Shown: positions 6,976 through 15,798 of the stretch, one piece after another
Layout of the letters: each line of letters starts with the position of its first letter
Position numbering within the stretch: position 1 is the stretch's first letter
Assembly (NCBI RefSeq): GCF_030530745.1
Contig: NZ_JAUMUI010000020.1
Coordinates: 1 to 32,903, forward strand
DNA length: 32,903 bases
DNA from: Neisseria sp.
GTDB taxonomy: Bacteria; Pseudomonadota; Gammaproteobacteria; Burkholderiales; Neisseriaceae
Direction of reading: 5' to 3'
The notes under the pieces: generated by a model
Database searches by the model: none
What the model saw: the letters and a program-made list of their open reading frames with translations, nothing else
Told to the model about the DNA's origin: nothing
Translations under genes and position numbers: made by a program

Positions 6976-8136
6976 TTATTTGTTGGCTTTCAAACCCTGC
7001 CACAGGCGCACGCTCAGTTTGACGGCGTCGGCCGACTTGGGCAGCACCACGAAGCTCTTGGCTTTCACTTCTTCGCCGGGGAAGATGGAGTTGTCGTCGG
7101 AATATTGTTTTTCCATCAGTTCGCGCGCCGGTTTGCTGGCGGGGGCGTAGGTAACGAAGTTGCCGTTTTGCGCCGCCGCTTTCGGGTCGAGCGAGTGGTT
7201 GATGTATTTGTGGGCGTTCACAACGTTTTGCGCGTCTTTCGGAATCATAAACGAATCGATCCATATGCCCACGCCGGTTTTCGGGGTGAGCACTTCAATG
7301 TTCACGCCGTTTTTCGCGTCTTTGGCGCGGTTTTTGGCAATGTTGAGGTCGCCGCCGTAGCCCACGGATACACACAGGTTGCCGGCCGCCATATCGTCGA
7401 TATAGCCGGAGGAGCTGAAGCGTTTAACGTCGGGGCGCACTTTTTTCATCAGCTCGATTGCGGCTTTCAAGTCGTCGGCGTTTTCGCTGTTCGGGTCTTT
7501 GCCCAGATAGTTCAGTGCCAGCGGAATCTGCTCGGTGGGGCTGTCGAAGAAGCTGATGCCGCACGATTTCAGTTTGGCGGTATATTCGGGGTTGAACACC
7601 AAATCCCATTCGTTGGCGGGCAGCCGGTCGGTGCCGAGCGCTTTTTTCACTTGGTCTTTGTTGACGGCCAGCGTGTTGATGCCCCAGAAGTAGGGCACGG
7701 CGTATTTGTTGCCGGGATCGACTTTATCCATCATCGCCATCAGGTCGGGATCGAGGTTGACATAGTTGGGAATCAGGTTTTTGTCGATTTCCTGATAGGC
7801 GCCGGCTTTAATCTGGCGGCCCACGTTGGCAATAGAGGGGGCGACCAAATCGTAACCCGATCTGCCGGTCAACACCTTGGCTTCAAGCGTTTCGTTGCTG
7901 TCGTAATAGTCGTAGCGCACTTTTACGCCGTTGGCTTTTTCAAATTCGGTAACGGTGGCAGGATCGACATAGTCCGACCAGTTGTAGATGTTTAGTTTGG
8001 CCGTGCCTGCGGCAGAAGCCTGCTGCGCGCCGCCCGCCGGTGTGTCGCCCGCCTGTTGGGTGCCGGAGCCGCCCGATCCGCCGCAGGCGGCCAGAAACAG
8101 GCTTGCCAGCGCAGAAAACAATAAAGTTTTTTTCAT
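6976..8136 (-). CDS. potD: PotD/PotF-type polyamine-binding lipoprotein
   Basis: Substrate-binding component of a spermidine/putrescine ABC importer, predicted to be lipid-anchored on the periplasmic side. The 386-residue product has a lipoprotein signal peptide with LFLAAC (C18), a Gly/Ser/Ala-rich linker to about residue 45, then the type-2 periplasmic binding fold: NIYNWSDYVDP, EAKVLTGRSGYDLVAPS, VPYFWGINTLAVNK and GVGIWIDSFMIPKDAQN. These are PotD/PotF hallmarks. The start at 8136 is selected because AAGGATAAC precedes it and it begins the signal peptide. No potABC genes are adjacent, so the permease must be elsewhere; Neisseria genomes often carry scattered potD paralogues. The leader has a terminator-like hairpin (8150-8175). 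Confidence 0.92.
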   Translation of the reverse strand: MKKTLLFSALASLFLAACGGSGGSGTQQAGDTPAGGAQQASAAGTAKLNIYNWSDYVDPATVTEFEKANGVKVRYDYYDSNETLEAKVLTGRSGYDLVAPSIANVGRQIKAGAYQEIDKNLIPNYVNLDPDLMAMMDKVDPGNKYAVPYFWGINTLAVNKDQVKKALGTDRLPANEWDLVFNPEYTAKLKSCGISFFDSPTEQIPLALNYLGKDPNSENADDLKAAIELMKKVRPDVKRFSSSGYIDDMAAGNLCVSVGYGGDLNIAKNRAKDAKNGVNIEVLTPKTGVGIWIDSFMIPKDAQNVVNAHKYINHSLDPKAAAQNGNFVTYAPASKPARELMEKQYSDDNSIFPGEEVKAKSFVVLPKSADAVKLSVRLWQGLKANK

Positions 8137-8149
8137 CTTGTTATCCTTC

Positions 8150-8175
8150 AAAAAAACGTACCGTTTGCGCGGTAC
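8150..8175 (-). promoter_or_regulatory. Terminator-like hairpin in the potD leader
   Basis: On the minus strand GTACCG-CGCAAA-CGGTAC is followed by G and seven T, ending 13 bases upstream of the potD start codon. It has the form of an intrinsic terminator inside the 5' untranslated region, so premature termination or masking of the nearby ribosome site is possible. No ligand-binding domain is recognised. Confidence 0.5.
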
Positions 8176-8450
8176 AAAAAAATAGAGAAATATGTAAAAC
8201 GGCATATTGCCGGATACAGCGGGCACCGGCGGGCCGGCGTAGTGCGGATTAAACGGCAAAAGCCTTTCTGATGCAATACCTTAGCGCGTAAAAACCAACA
8301 TTTTTTAACATTTTCCAGATAGGCGTTTCATCATAAACAAAAAATTTTTTCACACAGTGCCGCAGCCGCCGCGCTCACCGTGGCGGATTTGTCAAAGCCC
8401 CTGCATTTATGGGAAAATCATCCGATTGGATTTTATGCAAAGGGCGAATG

Positions 8451-8969
8451 ATGCTCGACCGTGAAGGATATCGCCCCAACGTCGGTATTATCTTAACCAA
8501 CGACCGCAACGAGGTTTTCTGGGGCAAGAGGGTGCGCGAACATTCGTGGCAGTTTCCTCAAGGCGGAATCAAGCCCGGGGAGAGCCCGGAAACCGCAATG
8601 TACCGCGAACTTCTGGAAGAAGTGGGCCTGCTGCCGCATCATGTGAAAATTCTGGGCCGTACGCGCGACTGGCTGCGCTACGACGTGCCTTCGCATTGGG
8701 TGCGCCGCGAATGGCGGGGCTCTTACCGCGGCCAAAAGCAGATATGGTATCTGCTGCGCCTTATCGGCCGCGAAAGCGACGTTCACCTGCGCGCCACCAG
8801 CCACCCCGAGTTCGACGGCTGGCGCTGGCACCAGTATTGGGCGCCGATAGATGAGGTAATCGATTTCAAACGGGATGTGTATGAGGGTGCGCTAAGCGAG
8901 CTGTCGCGCTTTCTCCGCGGTTTGGAAACCTTGGAAGAGTTCAACCGCAGGCAGCCGCAAGAGCGCTGA
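8451..8969 (+). CDS. rppH: RNA pyrophosphohydrolase RppH
   Basis: Nudix hydrolase that removes pyrophosphate from the 5' end of RNA and so starts 5'-dependent mRNA decay. The 172-residue protein begins [14 protein letters not shown], has the full Nudix box at residues 39-61 ([12 protein letters not shown], then RELLEEVGL) and the family-typical [19 protein letters not shown] and WRWHQYWAP blocks. AGGG sits about 8 bases before the ATG at 8451; the neighbouring ATG at 8448 is nearly as good, and a longer frame from 8409 is not supported by conservation. Transcribed alone, divergent from potD. Confidence 0.95.
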
Positions 8970-9706: not shown

Positions 9707-9831
9707 GCCCCGCAGACACAACGTAACAGCGGTATTTTGAGCCGGAATCCCCCGTTCTGCGGTATTAAAGTGCCTGCAAGATGTTTAACCCTGCCGCGCT
9801 TTTTGCTTCAAAAACCGCTTTACCGGCCAAG

Positions 9832-9863
9832 CAGCCCCCGTTATCCGGGGGCTGTTTCTTTTT
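9832..9863 (+). terminator. Intrinsic terminator, convergent junction
   Basis: CAGCCCCCG-TTATC-CGGGGGCTG followed by TTTCTTTTT on the plus strand. It serves the plus-strand gene ending at 9706 and overlaps the last codons of the minus-strand ATP-grasp gene, whose stop codon lies in the loop. Confidence 0.85.
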
Positions 9864-10692
9864 GATGTATCCAATCAGCCAAGACTCCGGCAAAACGCTC
9901 TGCGGCACCCGGGGCGGTGTCCAGATACAGTGTAGGCTCGATTAGTTCGAGCTCGCCGAGCAGAAAGCGCCCTTCGGCAGGTATGCCGTCTACACGGGCA
10001 TAAACGGGAATTTCAGGCAGGGCGGATAAAGTTCGGGCGGCGGCGGCCAAAGCATAATCGGGCGGGGCGGCGGGAAAAACGGTTGCTCCATAGGCAGAAT
10101 TGGCGCGCCATTCGTTTGCAGCAGGCTGCCTGCATACGGCGTGGCTGAAACGGCCGTTGAAAAACACCAAGGAAATTTCCCCTTTATTTTCTACGGATCT
10201 GATAAAAGGCTGTAGCACTGCGCCCTGCCTATAGGGATGCAGATCGGGCAGCGGCCGGCCGGCACGGATGCGCACCACATGCCGCCCGCTTTGGCCGACG
10301 GCGGGTTTCAATACCGCTTCATGCCAGCCGTTTTGCCGCATCGTCTGCACAATAAGCCGCGCTTCTGCAGGCAGGATGGCGGTGGGAATCACGGCCGTGC
10401 CTGCTGCGGCCAAGCCGGGCAGGTAGCTTTTGTGCATATTCCAACGCATCAGGGCGGGCGGATTGGCAAAGCGGCTGCCTGCCTTTTCGGCCTCTTGCAG
10501 CCATGCCGCAAATGCCTGCGGTTCGGCGGCATAATCCCATGCGCACAGGGGCAGGACAAACGGTGCCGCCGGGCGGTTCTGCCAGATATCGGATTTTACG
10601 GAAATACCGTGCCGCTCCTGCAGCAGGCGGGCAAGTTCCTGCAGGGAAAGCGGCGGATCGGGCCAGGTGCGGCAGGTGGTAATGGTGAGCAT
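9841..10692 (-). CDS. ATP-grasp ligase-like protein (DcsG-type)
   Basis: Predicted cytoplasmic ATP-dependent carboxylate-amine ligase of 283 residues. ATP-grasp features in order: WDY (52-54), PPALMRWNMHKSYL (78-91) with K88, VLKPAVGQSGRHV (127-139) with K129 as ATP-binding Lys, QPFIRSVENKGEISLVFFNG (161-180), and metal-binding residues in YARVD (231-235) and GELELIEP (246-253). The pattern resembles D-cycloserine ligase DcsG and related RimK/glutathione-synthetase-like proteins. The substrate is unknown. It starts 7 bases after the pseudoazurin-like gene and so is very likely translated from the same message, at the end of the Fur-box operon. That places an enzyme of small-molecule or peptide ligation in a metal-import cluster. 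Confidence 0.85.
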   Translation of the reverse strand: MLTITTCRTWPDPPLSLQELARLLQERHGISVKSDIWQNRPAAPFVLPLCAWDYAAEPQAFAAWLQEAEKAGSRFANPPALMRWNMHKSYLPGLAAAGTAVIPTAILPAEARLIVQTMRQNGWHEAVLKPAVGQSGRHVVRIRAGRPLPDLHPYRQGAVLQPFIRSVENKGEISLVFFNGRFSHAVCRQPAANEWRANSAYGATVFPAAPPDYALAAAARTLSALPEIPVYARVDGIPAEGRFLLGELELIEPTLYLDTAPGAAERFAGVLADWIHQKETAPG

Positions 10693-10699
10693 AAGGCAG

Positions 10700-11134
10700 T
10701 TATTCCACCATCTGCATATATTTTTTCAGACGGCCTTTGTTTTGCATGGAGCGGTTGTCCAGCTCGTCGGCGGCAGCCTGCGCCTGCGCCTTGTTGGTTG
10801 CAGCGCCCACTTGGATGATGCCGCTCATGTTCATCATGCGGTGCGGCGGGCAGGTGTAGACATACACGCCTTCTTTGTCGAATTTGATTGTGAATTCTTG
10901 GTTTTCTTGCGATAAAAATTCTTCGGCGCCTTCAGGAACGGCTTTGCTCTGTACCCAATGTCCTTTATTCACGGGCTTGAATGTAACGGTGTCGCCGGGC
11001 TGCACTTTTAAAAAACCCGGTTCGAACACCATGCCGCCGTCTTGGCCGTTGTCGAGCATTTTGACCTCGTGCGTGGTGTCCGGTGTGCAGCCTGCGGCGG
11101 TCAGAAGCAAGAGTAGGAGGTATTTTCTCATCAT
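10700..11134 (-). CDS. Pseudoazurin-like cupredoxin lipoprotein
   Basis: Predicted blue-copper electron-transfer protein anchored by lipid in the periplasm or outer membrane. The signal peptide ends in a lipobox (LTAAGC, C16). The cupredoxin domain spans about residues 20-110 and type-1 copper ligands are all present: H59 (GHW), C95 and H98 (TCPPH) and M103 (five residues after H98), the spacing of pseudoazurin. After the domain come about 35 residues rich in Ala, Gln and Lys, ending in KKYMQMVE, with a DUS embedded in the DNA at 10726-10736. Start at either of two adjacent ATGs, preceded by AAAGG. It lies 45 bases after the ABC ATPase gene and overlaps no gene. Partner enzyme unknown. Confidence 0.88.
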   Translation of the reverse strand: MMRKYLLLLLLTAAGCTPDTTHEVKMLDNGQDGGMVFEPGFLKVQPGDTVTFKPVNKGHWVQSKAVPEGAEEFLSQENQEFTIKFDKEGVYVYTCPPHRMMNMSGIIQVGAATNKAQAQAAADELDNRSMQNKGRLKKYMQMVE

Positions 11135-11179
11135 TATGCCTTTCTTTCTGCATTGTAATATCGGGCGGGCAAACGGGTT

Positions 11180-11947
11180 TCAGACGGCCTCCCGAACGGG
11201 ACGGATAACGGGGGCACCCCTGCTGTCGTAGAGCAGTTCCACATTCACACGGTAGAGGCGGCTCAAGGTTTCTGCCTGCAATACTTCGGCAGGTGCGCCC
11301 TGCCCCTGAACTTTGCCGTTGCCCAAAAGAATCAGGCCGTCTGAAAATTGGGCGGCCAGGCTTAAATCGTGCAATACCATCAGCGTAATCAGGCCTTTTT
11401 CGCGGGTGTGGCGGCATACATGTTCGAGCAGGTTGAGCTGGTGGTACATATCGAGCGCGCTCACCGGTTCGTCGAGCATCAGGATTTCGGGGTTGCGCAT
11501 CAAAACCTGGGCAAACATCACCAATTGGCGCTGGCCGCCGCTCAGGCGCATCACGTCGCGGTGGGCGAGGCGGGCGATGCCCAGCCGCTGCATGATTCCG
11601 GCAGCCTCCGCTATCAGTTCGTCGCCGATGTGCATATGCAGCGCGTCCGTGCGGCCGAGCAGCACCACCTCAAGCGCGGTCAGCGAGGCTTCGACGGCGG
11701 TGTCCTGCGGCATGTAGCCGATGCGTTTGCGCCAGCCCGATACGCGCGTTCTGTTTAAAACCTCGCTGCCGTAGCTGATACGGCCGCCGTAGGGGATGTC
11801 GCCGAACACGGTTTTAAGCAGCGACGATTTGCCGGCACCGTTGGGGCCGAGCACGGTATAGACTCTGCCCTGCTCCAGCGTGAGGTTGATGCGGTCGGCC
11901 ACGGTGGCTGTGCCGCGCTTGACGGTGAGGTTTGCCAGTTTCAGCAT
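11180..11947 (-). CDS. FecE/FepC-type ABC transporter ATPase
   Basis: Cytoplasmic ATP-binding subunit of an iron-chelate, heme or cobalamin-type importer. All motifs are present: Walker A GPNGAGKSS, Q-loop MPQD, signature LSGGQRQ, Walker B ILMLDEP, D-loop SALD and H-loop LHD. The 255-residue size is normal. The start at 11947 (MLKLANLTVKRG) matches the family; a longer frame begins inside the preceding gene. It begins 13 bases after the stop of the binding-protein gene. Three components of one importer (permease, binding protein, ATPase) are thus contiguous. A DUS lies inside the gene (11333-11344). Confidence 0.95.
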   Translation of the reverse strand: MLKLANLTVKRGTATVADRINLTLEQGRVYTVLGPNGAGKSSLLKTVFGDIPYGGRISYGSEVLNRTRVSGWRKRIGYMPQDTAVEASLTALEVVLLGRTDALHMHIGDELIAEAAGIMQRLGIARLAHRDVMRLSGGQRQLVMFAQVLMRNPEILMLDEPVSALDMYHQLNLLEHVCRHTREKGLITLMVLHDLSLAAQFSDGLILLGNGKVQGQGAPAEVLQAETLSRLYRVNVELLYDSRGAPVIRPVREAV

Positions 11948-11960
11948 GTTCGGGCGGCCT

Positions 11961-13181
11961 TTAAAACCATCCGGCAAACCAAGCCTTCACCCGCTCCAGC
12001 CATGTTTTCCACCAGCTGTCAGGAGAGGCGGCCGCTTGTGTTTGTGCCGCACCGTTGCCGGGGCATTCTGCGGGCGTTTCGCAGCCCAAGCGGATGAAAA
12101 ACGTGCCTTTAGGGGTAACGGGCAGGTATTTGCGGTGAAAGTCGAGGTAGTTTTTTTCGGGATCGATGTCGGCAAAGGCATCAGGGTAGAGGGCTTTGGC
12201 GATAAATTGTGCAGAGGCTAAGTCGGAAAGCGAGCGCGAGGCGGTGTGGTAGATGCCGTAGACGCGCCGGTTTTTTACGGCAGGCAGATCCTGCCAGCCT
12301 GCACGGCGGGTGAAGCCTGCCAGCCGCCGCCCGGCCTCTTCGGCCTCTACACCGATGCCCATTGCCATCGCTTCGGGTTGTTCCAGCCCTGTTTCGGTTC
12401 CGGAAATAACCACTACATCGGGCTTGGCGGCCAGAACCTGTTCGGGGTTGGCCGGCCCCCAGTCTTTGACAAACGGCGCGGCGATATTGTTTCCTCCTGC
12501 CATTGCGGCAATCGCGCCCCACATGTTGCTGCCGAACGTGTAGCTGTGTTCGGCCGGTCCTTTGTCGCCGAATTCGATGTAGATTTTCGGTTTGGCCTGT
12601 TTGGCGGCGGCCACGCGTTTTTCAATATCGGCAATGCCCTGTGCGTATTCGCCGGCTACTGCTTCGGCGCGTTCGGGCGTGCCTGCGATTTCTCCGAAGA
12701 GCTTGGTGCTGGCGGTGTGGCGTTCAACCGTTTGCGCGTTGAAGTCAACCACCAGCACGGGGATGCCTGCCTGATCGAAGCGCGGCATTTCGCCGGCTAG
12801 GGTTTCATATTGCCAATCGGCCAAAACCACCACGTCGGGCTTCATCGCCAGCGTTTTTTCAAACGAAAACGTGCCGGTGTTGATGTTGCCGATGTCGCCG
12901 ATATTTTGCAGCGAGGGGATTTTTTCACGGTAAAGCGTCCAGCTTCCCGGGTTGAATTTTTCCCAAAATTCGCGCGAAATGCCGACTACGTTTTTGAAGT
13001 TTTCTGCACCGGTTGCGGCGATGTAGTCGGGGTAGTAAAAGCCCAGTACTACGCGTTTGGCGGGCACGTCGAGTTTCACTTCGCGGCCGCGCACGTCGGT
13101 GAGGGTTTTTATTCCGGCATGGGCGGAAAATGCGGCAGCAAGCAGCACGGCGGCGGCAAAAAATTTGAGTGCGGTTTTCAT
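11961..13181 (-). CDS. Periplasmic metal/chelate-binding protein 1 (FecB/TroA fold)
   Basis: Substrate-binding protein of the ABC importer, 406 residues, type-III periplasmic fold (Peripla_BP_2). A cleavable Sec signal peptide (AAAFSAHA before GIK) is followed by the first lobe with TDVRGREVKLDVPAKRVV, FYYPDY and VVLADWQYETL, and a second lobe with IYIEFGDKGPAEHSYTFG, NPEQVLAAKPDVVVISG and a NRRVYGIYHTASRS strand. There is no lipobox. The C-terminus has a Cys pair (GCETPAEC) and a terminal aromatic, basic stretch (SWWKTWLERVKAWFAGWF), which may be an amphipathic helix holding the protein to the membrane. It is a paralogue of the protein at 14415. RBS AAGGAAATCACC precedes 13181. The ligand (heme, siderophore, nickel or another metal) cannot be inferred with confidence. 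Confidence 0.9.
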   Translation of the reverse strand: MKTALKFFAAAVLLAAAFSAHAGIKTLTDVRGREVKLDVPAKRVVLGFYYPDYIAATGAENFKNVVGISREFWEKFNPGSWTLYREKIPSLQNIGDIGNINTGTFSFEKTLAMKPDVVVLADWQYETLAGEMPRFDQAGIPVLVVDFNAQTVERHTASTKLFGEIAGTPERAEAVAGEYAQGIADIEKRVAAAKQAKPKIYIEFGDKGPAEHSYTFGSNMWGAIAAMAGGNNIAAPFVKDWGPANPEQVLAAKPDVVVISGTETGLEQPEAMAMGIGVEAEEAGRRLAGFTRRAGWQDLPAVKNRRVYGIYHTASRSLSDLASAQFIAKALYPDAFADIDPEKNYLDFHRKYLPVTPKGTFFIRLGCETPAECPGNGAAQTQAAASPDSWWKTWLERVKAWFAGWF

Positions 13182-13200
13182 GGTGATTTCCTTATTAAGG

Positions 13201-13254
13201 TTTTCAGACGGCCTTGCAGGGTCAATTACCGACAGCCCTCGGGCCGTCTGAAAA
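13201..13254 (-). terminator. Inverted DUS pair inside the operon
   Basis: TTTTCAGACGGCC (13201-13213) and GGCCGTCTGAAAA (13242-13254) form a 13-bp stem with a 28-base loop between the permease stop and the binding-protein-1 start. It looks like other terminators in this window but sits within an otherwise continuous gene row, so partial termination is possible. Confidence 0.6.
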
Positions 13255-13261
13255 CAGGGTT

Positions 13262-14317
13262 TTATTTTTTGGTCAGTACAATCCAAAAGAAAAACGGCAC
13301 GCCTACAAACGAGGTAACGATGCCCACGGGGAAAAGCGCGCCGGGGATAATTACTTTGGAGAGCACTGAGGCCACCGACAAAAACGCCGCTCCTGCCAGC
13401 ATGGATCCCGGCAGGAAAAAACGCTGGTCTTCGCCGAGCAGGAGCCGCGCCACATGCGGTGCCACCAGCCCGATAAAGCCGATGATGCCCACGAAACTGA
13501 TAGCCGTTGCCGTCATCACCGCCACCAGCACCAGCGTTTGGATGCGCAGCCGCTGCAGGTTGATGCCCAGGCCGGCGGCGCGCTCCTCACCCAGCCGCAG
13601 GGCGGTGAGTTTCCATACGTCTTTGGCCAGCAGCGACACGCATACCGCCGTTACCGCCGTGGTTACAGCCAGTGTTTCCCAAGTGGCTTTGGTGAGGCTG
13701 CCGAACAGCCAGAACATAATCTGCTGTGAGATTTCCGGTGCGGAAACAAACTGAATCAGCGAGAGCAGCGATTGGAACAGAAACAGCAGGGCAATCCCCA
13801 CCAGCACCAGCATGGCTGAATTGAAACGGCGCATCGAGGCAAAAAGAAACAGCACCGCCGAAGCCAGCATGGTCATGGCAAACGCCCCGACGGGCACGGT
13901 CAGGGCGGCAGGCAGGCCGAAACCGCCGAATGCGATCACCACCGATGCCCCCAACCCTGCCGCCGCCGCCAGACCCAGCGTATAAGGGCTTGCCATGGGA
14001 TTGTTGAGCAGCGTTTGGATTTCCGCACCGCCCACACCCAGCGCAGCCCCCACCACCAGCGCCATCAGTGCCATCGGCAGGCGCAGGTCGTAAACGATAA
14101 CCTTGCTCATGGCATCGGCGCTTTCCATATTCAGCAGCGATTTCACCACTTCGGAAACCGGCAGCATAGACGGACCGGTGGCAATGTCGAACACCAGTCC
14201 GGCAAGGCTGACCGTTAGAAAAAAAGCCACAACCAGCCAGCGTTTGCGCTCGAGGGCGCGCTGGCTTTTTACAATGTCGGCAACGGCGGACTGCGTGTCT
14301 GAGGCGGAATTTGTCAT
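13262..14317 (-). CDS. FecCD-family ABC transporter permease
   Basis: Inner-membrane channel subunit of the iron-chelate/vitamin-B12 type, 351 residues with about ten predicted hydrophobic segments. Recognisable family motifs are the DLRLPMALMALVVGAALGVGG stretch (a typical LRLPR variant), PLASPYTLGL-like NNPMASPYTLGLAAAAGLGAS, GEERAAGLGI (cytoplasmic loop contacting the ATPase) and GFIGLVAPHVARLL. The start at 14317 gives MTNSASDTQ; the in-frame TTG at 14338 is less likely. A DUS-containing gap of about 80 bases separates it from binding protein 1 and about 97 bases from binding protein 2. Only one permease gene is present, so it should act as a homodimer. Confidence 0.95.
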   Translation of the reverse strand: MTNSASDTQSAVADIVKSQRALERKRWLVVAFFLTVSLAGLVFDIATGPSMLPVSEVVKSLLNMESADAMSKVIVYDLRLPMALMALVVGAALGVGGAEIQTLLNNPMASPYTLGLAAAAGLGASVVIAFGGFGLPAALTVPVGAFAMTMLASAVLFLFASMRRFNSAMLVLVGIALLFLFQSLLSLIQFVSAPEISQQIMFWLFGSLTKATWETLAVTTAVTAVCVSLLAKDVWKLTALRLGEERAAGLGINLQRLRIQTLVLVAVMTATAISFVGIIGFIGLVAPHVARLLLGEDQRFFLPGSMLAGAAFLSVASVLSKVIIPGALFPVGIVTSFVGVPFFFWIVLTKK

Positions 14318-14380
14318 CGGTTTGTGTGTGCGGAACAATCGGCAGGGATAGGAAATGGGGTTTCAGACGGCCTTAGGCCG

Positions 14381-14400
14381 AACGGGCTTTAAAAGCCGTT
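14381..14400 (-). terminator. Short hairpin between binding protein 2 and the permease
   Basis: AACGGGCTTT faces AAAGCCGTT with one bulged base, preceded by CGGCC-TTA-GGCCG next to a DUS. It could weaken read-through from the first gene, which would leave more binding protein than permease. Confidence 0.4.
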
Positions 14401-14414
14401 TAAAACGCCTGTGT

Positions 14415-15638
14415 TTAACCGAACAGTGATTTGAACCAGGCTATTAAGCGGCCCCACCAAGACTCGGAAGACGTTTCCTGACTGCCGCTTTTATCTGCAT
14501 TATCGGTCGTGCAGTTCAAATCTTTACAGCCTTCCTGAATATAAAACGTGCCCTCGGGCACCACCGGCAGATAATTGCGGTAGAAATCCTGATAGGTTTT
14601 ATCGGGGTTCAAGTCGCCGAAAAGCTGCGGATACACGGCTTTGGCCATAAACTGCAGCGATGCGCCGTCTGAAAGCGTACGCGAATTGGCATGGTAGGCA
14701 CCGTAGAGGCGTTGGTTCCGAACGGCGGGCAATGCATCCCAGCCTGCGCGTTTGGCAAAACCGGCCAGGCGGGTTTCGGCTTCTGCGCGGGGAACGCCCC
14801 AGCCCATCACCATGGCCGTCGGGTTTTTCCCCAGCTCGGTTTCGCGGCCGGTAACCACAATCACATCGGGCTTGGCCGCCAGCACCTGCTCCGGGTTGAT
14901 AGGGGCGTAAAACTCCACCGAAGAAGCGGCAATATTTTCGCCGCCGGCCAGATCGATCATCGGCCCCCACATCGCCTTGCCGAAAGTGAAGCTGTGTTCT
15001 TCCGGCCCTTTGTCGCCGAACTCCACATAAACCTTGGGTTTGGGCAGGCCGGCCTTAGAAATACGGTTTCGAATATCGTCGGCAACGGCCTTATATTCTG
15101 CCGATAGTTTGGCCGCCTGCTCTTTCCGGCCGGTCAGCGTGCCGATGATTTCGGTGGATTTCATATGTTTTTCCACCGTTTGTGCGTTGTAGTCGACCAC
15201 TACTACCGGTATGCCCGCTTTTTCGATTCTGTCCAAATCCGATCCCAGCGCCTGATACTGCCAGTCGGCCAACAGCAGCAGGTCGGGTTTCAGCGAAAGC
15301 ACTTTCTCAACCGAAAACGTGCCCACTTCCACTTCGCCCACATCGGCCAGCTCATTGAGTTTGGGCACGGCTTTGCTGAACGCTTCCCAGCTTGCCGGCG
15401 CCCAGTCCGACCAGACGGCTTTGGAAAAGCCCACTACATTGTCCAGCGCATCTTTGCCGCCGACGGCCATATAGTCCTGATAATAAAAACCAAGCACAGC
15501 CCGCTTCACGGGCAGGTCGACCGTTACCTTGCGTTCGTTGACGTCGGTGATTTCAACCGGTGCGGAAAAAGCGGAAGCTGCGGCCAATAACAGGGATGCG
15601 GCAAGGGCGGATAGAGCGGAGTTGGGTTTGGGAAACAT
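14415..15638 (-). CDS. Periplasmic metal/chelate-binding protein 2 (FecB/TroA fold)
   Basis: First gene of the Fur-box operon; 407 residues, type-III periplasmic binding fold. Signal peptide with cleavage after AFSA, then the same landmarks as its paralogue: TDVNERKVTVDLPVKRAV, FYYQDY, LLADWQYQAL, VYVEFGDKGPEEHSFTFG, NPEQVLAAKPDVIVVTG and YGAYHANSRTLSDGAS. The two proteins align along their length and differ mostly at surface positions. The C-terminus again has a Cys pair (GCKDLNC) and ends in a tryptophan-rich stretch (SWWGRLIAWFKSLFG) that could bind membrane. No lipobox. Two binding proteins with one permease suggests two ligands or a delivery relay. Confidence 0.9.
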   Translation of the reverse strand: MFPKPNSALSALAASLLLAAASAFSAPVEITDVNERKVTVDLPVKRAVLGFYYQDYMAVGGKDALDNVVGFSKAVWSDWAPASWEAFSKAVPKLNELADVGEVEVGTFSVEKVLSLKPDLLLLADWQYQALGSDLDRIEKAGIPVVVVDYNAQTVEKHMKSTEIIGTLTGRKEQAAKLSAEYKAVADDIRNRISKAGLPKPKVYVEFGDKGPEEHSFTFGKAMWGPMIDLAGGENIAASSVEFYAPINPEQVLAAKPDVIVVTGRETELGKNPTAMVMGWGVPRAEAETRLAGFAKRAGWDALPAVRNQRLYGAYHANSRTLSDGASLQFMAKAVYPQLFGDLNPDKTYQDFYRNYLPVVPEGTFYIQEGCKDLNCTTDNADKSGSQETSSESWWGRLIAWFKSLFG

Positions 15639-15700
15639 GCTTGAACCTCGATGGAAAATAGAAAAAGCGGAAATAAAATTCAGAGGCCGTCTGAATATTT

Positions 15701-15723
15701 TTTAAAACAGATTTTGTTTTAAA
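15701..15723. promoter_or_regulatory. Palindrome in the leader of the iron operon
   Basis: TTTAAAACA (15701-15709) and TGTTTTAAA (15715-15723) form a nine-base perfect inverted repeat with a 5-base centre, located between the Fur box and the start of the first binding-protein gene. It may be a second operator or an RNA stem. Confidence 0.4.
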
Positions 15724-15731
15724 TAAAATAA

Positions 15732-15746
15732 AGACAATAATTATCA
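15732..15746 (-). promoter_or_regulatory. Fur box upstream of the iron-chelate operon
   Basis: On the minus strand the sequence TGATAATTATTGTCT matches the 7-1-7 Fur consensus TGATAATnATTATCA at 12 of 14 positions. It lies about 95 bases upstream of the start of the first binding protein, in AT-rich DNA containing TTGAAC and TTTACA as possible -35 elements. Iron-dependent repression of the whole downstream row is inferred. Confidence 0.75.
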
Positions 15747-15798
15747 TTTAAAGTTCAATGCGGAAATGTAAAAAGACCATATTGAAGCTTCTGTAAAA

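Follow-up and report, generated by a model that had tools for sequence, protein, structure and literature searches.

A conserved and probably iron-responsive import operon of Neisseria and other bacteria that joins a FecBCD-type transporter to a pseudoazurin and an ATP-grasp enzyme

Analysis of a 32,903-nucleotide stretch of a Neisseria sp. genome (the window; RefSeq assembly GCF_030530745.1, contig NZ_JAUMUI010000020.1) uncovered six open reading frames (ORFs) in the same direction on the minus strand, at positions 9841–15638. Pfam and NCBIfam profile searches with curated cut-offs assign them, in order, to a substrate-binding protein of the FecB/YiuA class (SBP2; 14415..15638), a single FecCD permease (13262..14317; PF01032, 267.9 bits), a second substrate-binding protein (SBP1; 11961..13181; PF01497, 86.4 bits), an ABC ATPase (11180..11947; PF00005 or ABC_tran, 104.9 bits), a pseudoazurin (10700..11134), and an ATP-grasp enzyme with a DcsG-like predicted fold (9841..10692), the gene order that a preliminary description of this DNA had given. 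The ORFs of the permease, SBP1, and the ATPase open at 14338, 13286, and 11977, and their likely ATG starts at 14317, 13181, and 11947 were chosen by eye from the ORF list. Both substrate-binding proteins match Peripla_BP_2, and since this family, the FecCD permease, and the ABC_tran ATPase all exceed their Pfam cut-offs, the first four genes encode a FecBCD-type importer. Only 7 bases separate the pseudoazurin gene from the ATP-grasp gene. A hairpin with a 12-pair stem (9829..9857), listed for the plus strand where its T run lies, marks the operon end between convergent genes, while all terminator-like sites listed for the minus strand are intragenic and none falls within the operon gaps. An Rfam scan of the window returned tRNA only.

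The operon is preceded by a Fur-like box (15727..15751, minus strand), a site also anticipated in the preliminary description. In its best register (15727–15745; a second register extends to 15751) the box agrees at 15 of 19 positions with a 19-base Fur consensus, a score reached by none of 200 dinucleotide shuffles, and it overlaps a putative sigma-70-like promoter (15743..15772, minus strand; TTTACA-18-AATGAT), which is a consensus match only (9/12). Of 37 operons, 20 have a match of at least 14/19 in the 250 bases ahead of SBP2, vs. 7 of 315 other ORFs from the same loci. The threshold for this comparison was set after the first scores were known, and its operons are not independent; they include, for example, four loci from Haemophilus and five near-identical ones from Neisseria. 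All seven matching control ORFs belong to the 113 with AT-rich upstream regions. The count leaves out loci L072 and L073, where SBP2 matches are incomplete, loci without SBP2, and the duplicate loci L074, L075, L076, and L088. Chance occurrence of the site was rejected on the shuffles and on this enrichment, and the operon carries a predicted Fur box at its promoter. Upstream regions of the ATP-grasp genes contain no match of 14/19 or better.

A counterpart in Actinobacillus pleuropneumoniae, APPSER1_09785-09810, carries the same six annotations, on which the likeness is based, and has the gene order of three other Actinobacillus species; its SBP1 gene follows the cupredoxin gene, unlike in the window operon. 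A study of this organism (PMC12507848) describes these genes as an operon whose products are putatively associated with iron transport, gives log2 changes of +2.98, +2.93, +1.49, +2.38, +2.38, and +0.91 for the six proteins under iron starvation, against transcripts that fell or did not change, and names DFO in a supplement legend. It is strongly suggested that the operon responds to iron, with proteins and transcripts pointing in different directions as to the level of control.

Across the family, 84 genomes were searched separately for the ATP-grasp enzyme (E ≤ 1e-10), the pseudoazurin (1e-15), and the permease (1e-80). Each matched 20 genomes, and the 20 were identical; all are Neisseria (20/47 within the genus, 0/37 outside it), in a count where related genomes are not independent. 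The importer and pseudoazurin genes are adjacent in all 20, one assembly stopping inside the pseudoazurin gene, while SBP1 is optional and present in the operon of eight. The ATP-grasp gene lies at the operon end in 10 genomes, divergently upstream in four, and away from the importer in six. Five of the loci placed away are closely similar, and so probably reflect one relocation; in genome G040 the gene is on a different contig, where over 8 kb of other DNA flanks it in both directions. Because the same 20 of 84 genomes hold all three components, even where the ATP-grasp gene is elsewhere, their linkage is not due to chance.

When named genomes were scanned with the ATP-grasp profile, 53 stretches matched a peptide pattern and 31 loci were confirmed. 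Importer, pseudoazurin, and ATP-grasp genes occur together in 19 of these, from Neisseria, Actinobacillus, Mesocricetibacter, Aggregatibacter, Haemophilus, Pelistega, Nitrincola, Marinomonas, and Candidatus Helicobacter avistercoris. One further locus, from Rhodobacter capsulatus, contains the importer and ATP-grasp genes and no cupredoxin, and adjoins genes for a TonB-dependent siderophore receptor, a second substrate-binding protein, and a siderophore-interacting FAD protein. The remaining 11 have the ATP-grasp gene without this importer in view: L070 (from the same genome as G040), L080 (which starts 94 bases before the ATP-grasp gene, with SBP1 on the opposite side), L087, L090, L099, and six Microvirga loci. 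On a Vibrio coralliilyticus plasmid, genes for a substrate-binding protein, permease, ATPase, pseudoazurin, and ATP-grasp enzyme follow one another consecutively. Several families and a Helicobacter therefore share this gene order exactly or nearly so, which answers the search for it in relatives that had been proposed at the outset; the situation named beforehand as pointing to chance, absence of the cupredoxin and ATP-grasp genes beside the importer in most relatives, was looked for and is not what we see. The initial remark that the last two genes are not usual companions may hold for FecBCD importers in general, yet it does not hold for this importer clade. In midpoint-rooted trees, which excluded matches shorter than 900 bases or containing stops, Haemophilus and Aggregatibacter sequences cluster with those of a single Neisseria, and the remaining Neisseria branch separately (SBP2, 100/99; permease, 93/94), a grouping that speaks for transfer between families.

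Across 59 loci from 16 genera or groups, the only families outside the core to recur in at least three were ABC components, substrate-binding proteins, ATP-grasp, Nik/Cnt relatives, and regulators, the last (response regulators and LysR) named by eye. Several features of individual loci were also recorded. In Vibrio the operon is immediately preceded by a divergent Acetyltransf_18 gene, in genome G092 by one on the same strand, and a divergent Marinomonas ORF resembles this acetyltransferase by eye (regions L028:5401-6318, L092:5477-6340, and L116:9897-10922). The Nitrincola permease (L091:6850-7876) is split into three overlapping or adjoining matches, indicating a pseudogene or a sequencing error. 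The R. capsulatus copy (L095:10895-13042, 13666-14223) adjoins a heavy-metal P-type ATPase and a small Gly/Met-rich ORF, which we take to recall the genes of an iron-storage organelle (fez).

The predicted fold of SBP2 is closest to 4mo9 from Veillonella and to YiuA from Yersinia, the latter with iron and DHB-Arg-Ser. PMC5683015 names a basic triad in YiuA, Arg64, Arg165, and Arg223; in a HMMER alignment these residues fall on a gap, Asn151, and Gly208, while YiuA His331 aligns with His316. The binding proteins appear to share the overall fold of YiuA, as modelled for SBP2, but do not keep its arginine triad. Heme import was considered and rejected, given that both substrate-binding proteins score far below the heme-binding cut-off and that the modelled SBP2 is nearest to 4mo9 and YiuA; the top NCBIfam match of the ATPase is a heme ATPase, at 211 bits, below its cut-off of 261. 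Vitamin B12 import was rejected on missed NCBIfam cut-offs. A similar Trp-rich tail (SWW...WF) ends both substrate-binding proteins of the window (14418-14480 and 11964-12030) and is possibly a membrane anchor; other Neisseria SBP1 copies match that end, and aligned proteins from Pasteurellaceae, Pelistega, and marine bacteria stop before it.

The pseudoazurin exceeds the TIGR02375 cut-off (114.6 vs. 109.85 bits), and the alignment bears out the early statement that it has all four type-1 copper ligands: each of the 11 aligned pseudoazurins has His59, Cys95, His98, and Met103. It shares its family score and ligands with known pseudoazurins but is encoded within a Fur-linked importer operon. 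The lipoprotein label first given to it fits this species, whose protein has a lipobox cysteine, but does not extend further, as seven other aligned N-termini lack the residue (comparison by alignment only, the other three rows starting past this position).

Pseudoazurins are classic electron donors to copper nitrite reductase, with a potential of about +0.27 V, while ferric siderophores lie well below 0 V. In a reductive mode of release, the cupredoxin would donate electrons to a periplasmic ferric chelate and the freed metal would then be imported. Such a role would give a redox protein a place in an iron-import operon, but it is very improbable, because ferric chelates have potentials far below that of pseudoazurin, making reduction by this protein unfavourable, and because an importer and binding proteins of a chelate-binding class would be needless were the metal freed beforehand. 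The copper-dependent redox release of metal proposed in the preliminary description is thus unsupported. From these potentials, and by analogy with another iron importer, we infer that the pseudoazurin accepts electrons. Copper proteins serve iron import in ferrous systems: EfeO, of EfeUOB, carries a cupredoxin. PMC11966278 describes a copper protein of this kind for FtrABCD, whose cupredoxin FtrB oxidises Fe2+ in vitro and binds copper via Asp118 and His121 rather than a type-1 set. Those ferrous systems use an Ftr1-type permease; the importer here is a FecCD ABC transporter, with no Ftr1-type permease among the six genes.

The ATP-grasp enzyme is presumably cytoplasmic and only weakly classified. 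It barely passes the Pfam cut-off for GSH-S_ATP (24.3 vs. 23 bits) and passes no NCBIfam cut-off, the best match being DcsG (NF058666) at 115.6 vs. 360 bits. Its predicted fold resembles that of DcsG, a D-cycloserine synthetase (6jil), and carries conserved charged residues at the ATP and Mg positions, as expected for a carboxylate-amine ligase, but the other five genes are not cycloserine genes. ATP-grasp enzymes with a DcsG-like fold make amide bonds. In two Paracoccus loci (L087 and L090) and one from SAR324 (L099), the ATP-grasp gene accompanies Nik/Cnt- or Opp-type importer genes. Since the family closes operons of the Nik/Cnt (nickel/opine) type as well, it may act on imported chelators, and the earlier idea of a ligase working on a chelator gains support from this context. 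In the six Microvirga loci the ATP-grasp gene has no match to a substrate-binding protein, permease, or cupredoxin beside it, and a weak ATPase match in three (ORFs were inspected in L089 and L100 only). In genome G054 (L030:3738-4816) the 3′ end of the gene is tandemly repeated, with two further copies of about 44 codons.

Amide-bond formation, on the modelled fold, and the presence of the ATP-grasp gene beside two unrelated classes of metallophore importer would also fit an enzyme that makes a small amide metallophore, which would leave the cell by a different route and return through this importer. We consider this unlikely, as no exporter or additional biosynthetic family stands beside the ATP-grasp gene in at least three of the 16 genera or groups (59 loci); an MFS-like gene was recognised by eye in one related importer locus, which lacks ATP-grasp. 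The same loci bear on the identity of the metal. A His-rich repeat protein without Pfam or NCBIfam match is encoded between the importer and ATP-grasp genes of Paracoccus versutus (L090:7549-7983), and a ZigA-like zinc GTPase is encoded near the ATP-grasp gene of L087. Along with the copper protein built into the operon and the Nik/Cnt association, these neighbours would suit uptake of a copper (or nickel or zinc) chelate, with the pseudoazurin as copper recipient or chaperone and the Fur link secondary. This possibility is a minority one; set against it are the Fur-like boxes that precede 20 of the 37 operons, the position of the R. capsulatus copy beside siderophore receptor and siderophore-interacting protein genes, and the rise of the A. 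pleuropneumoniae proteins in iron starvation, as reported in PMC12507848.

Together these results describe a real, conserved, and probably iron-responsive import module, for which a mechanism can be proposed from its genes and their context. The best explanation of the whole, to which we give a probability of roughly 45%, is a mobile ferric-chelate import module with a pseudoazurin oxidant and a chelator ligase. The substrate, the redox direction, and the ligase reaction are those that we infer as follows. A horizontally moving module, controlled by Fur in many hosts, would import a chelated metal, most likely ferric iron. One or two binding proteins of the YiuA/FepB class would pass the chelate to a FecCD homodimer powered by one ATPase. 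The periplasmic pseudoazurin would be a dedicated electron carrier, most likely oxidising, so that the metal stays ferric and held by its chelator. In the cytoplasm, the ATP-grasp enzyme would attach an amine to a carboxylate group on the imported chelator, or remake the chelator, so that the metal is bound less tightly or the ligand is recycled. The most specific form of this proposal is tentative and on balance unlikely: that the ligase caps a chelator carboxylate with an amine, allowing intracellular iron release without reduction or hydrolysis, that the pseudoazurin keeps periplasmic metal ferric, and that FecBCD and Nik/Cnt importers both recruited the ligase. Of the iron-regulated chelate uptake first suggested, a single cluster that is probably iron-responsive is supported, and the redox release of the metal is not.

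A number of observations weigh against the ferric-chelate module. A YiuA-like ligand is doubtful because the arginine triad is not kept, and the metal in the Nik/Cnt-type cases may be zinc or nickel. A Fur match of 14/19 or better is absent from 17 of the 37 operons, many of the 37 being close relatives; among those without a good match are the N. sicca-like loci, that of R. capsulatus, and those of genomes G092 and G222. Transcripts of the six A. pleuropneumoniae genes changed by −1.64, −0.88, −1.39, −1.85, −1.38, and −0.14 while the proteins rose (PMC12507848), and the word "azurin" is absent from the main text of two earlier microarray papers (PMC3091793, PMC1832192). The linkage has limits as well. 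When 200 genomes were sampled evenly from the order (permease E ≤ 1e-90, pseudoazurin profile 1e-25, ATP-grasp profile 1e-20), the permease was found in six genomes, the pseudoazurin in five, and the ATP-grasp enzyme in 16, the window's genome counted each time. In genomes G092 and G222, genes for a substrate-binding protein, permease, and ATPase are joined by one for pseudoazurin, and no ATP-grasp gene was found; G186 encodes the permease, ATPase, and substrate-binding protein with neither pseudoazurin nor ATP-grasp; and G135 has the pseudoazurin and ATP-grasp pair, with only a generic FecCD pair elsewhere. G110 and G198 contain a permease of about 49% identity that the tree places outside the clade, an ATP-grasp gene on another contig, and no such cupredoxin, while 12 more genomes have the ATP-grasp gene alone and one the cupredoxin alone. 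In a class-level sample of 369 genomes, with two permease, 24 pseudoazurin, and seven ATP-grasp matches, more than one component occurred only in the window's genome, the others having 23 pseudoazurin-like proteins, six ATP-grasp enzymes, and one distant permease. The order and class samples indicate that the importer and pseudoazurin form the tighter unit, with the ATP-grasp enzyme a frequent addition. Upstream of the G135 pair (L118), a transposase-like ORF recognised by eye (7246-8859) may have severed the pair from an importer.

The pseudoazurin and ATP-grasp families have relatives with other roles, and both also occur without the importer. The cupredoxin could then be an ordinary respiratory donor, for example to nitrite reductase, a classic partner of pseudoazurins, with an unrelated ATP-grasp enzyme and both genes simply carried along. 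That account is decidedly unlikely in view of the identical 20 of 84 genomes that hold all three components, the shared order across several families and Helicobacter, and the retention of the cupredoxin beside the importer in the two genomes where no ATP-grasp gene was found.

Taken singly, importer class, pseudoazurin, and ATP-grasp fold are all known; what distinguishes this system from FecBCD and BtuFCD chelate importers is its companions, and what is new is the conserved combination and its possible chemistry. No open-access (PMC) paper was found with both "pseudoazurin" and "ATP-grasp", and the matches listed include no functional study of the operon. If the proposal is true, host-associated Neisseria, Haemophilus, Aggregatibacter, and Actinobacillus would share an uncharacterised iron-import route that employs a copper protein and a ligase. 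With its core of few genes, the module is a testable system, and it would provide a concrete link between copper and iron in import and possibly a third way to free a metal from its chelator, beside reduction and hydrolysis.

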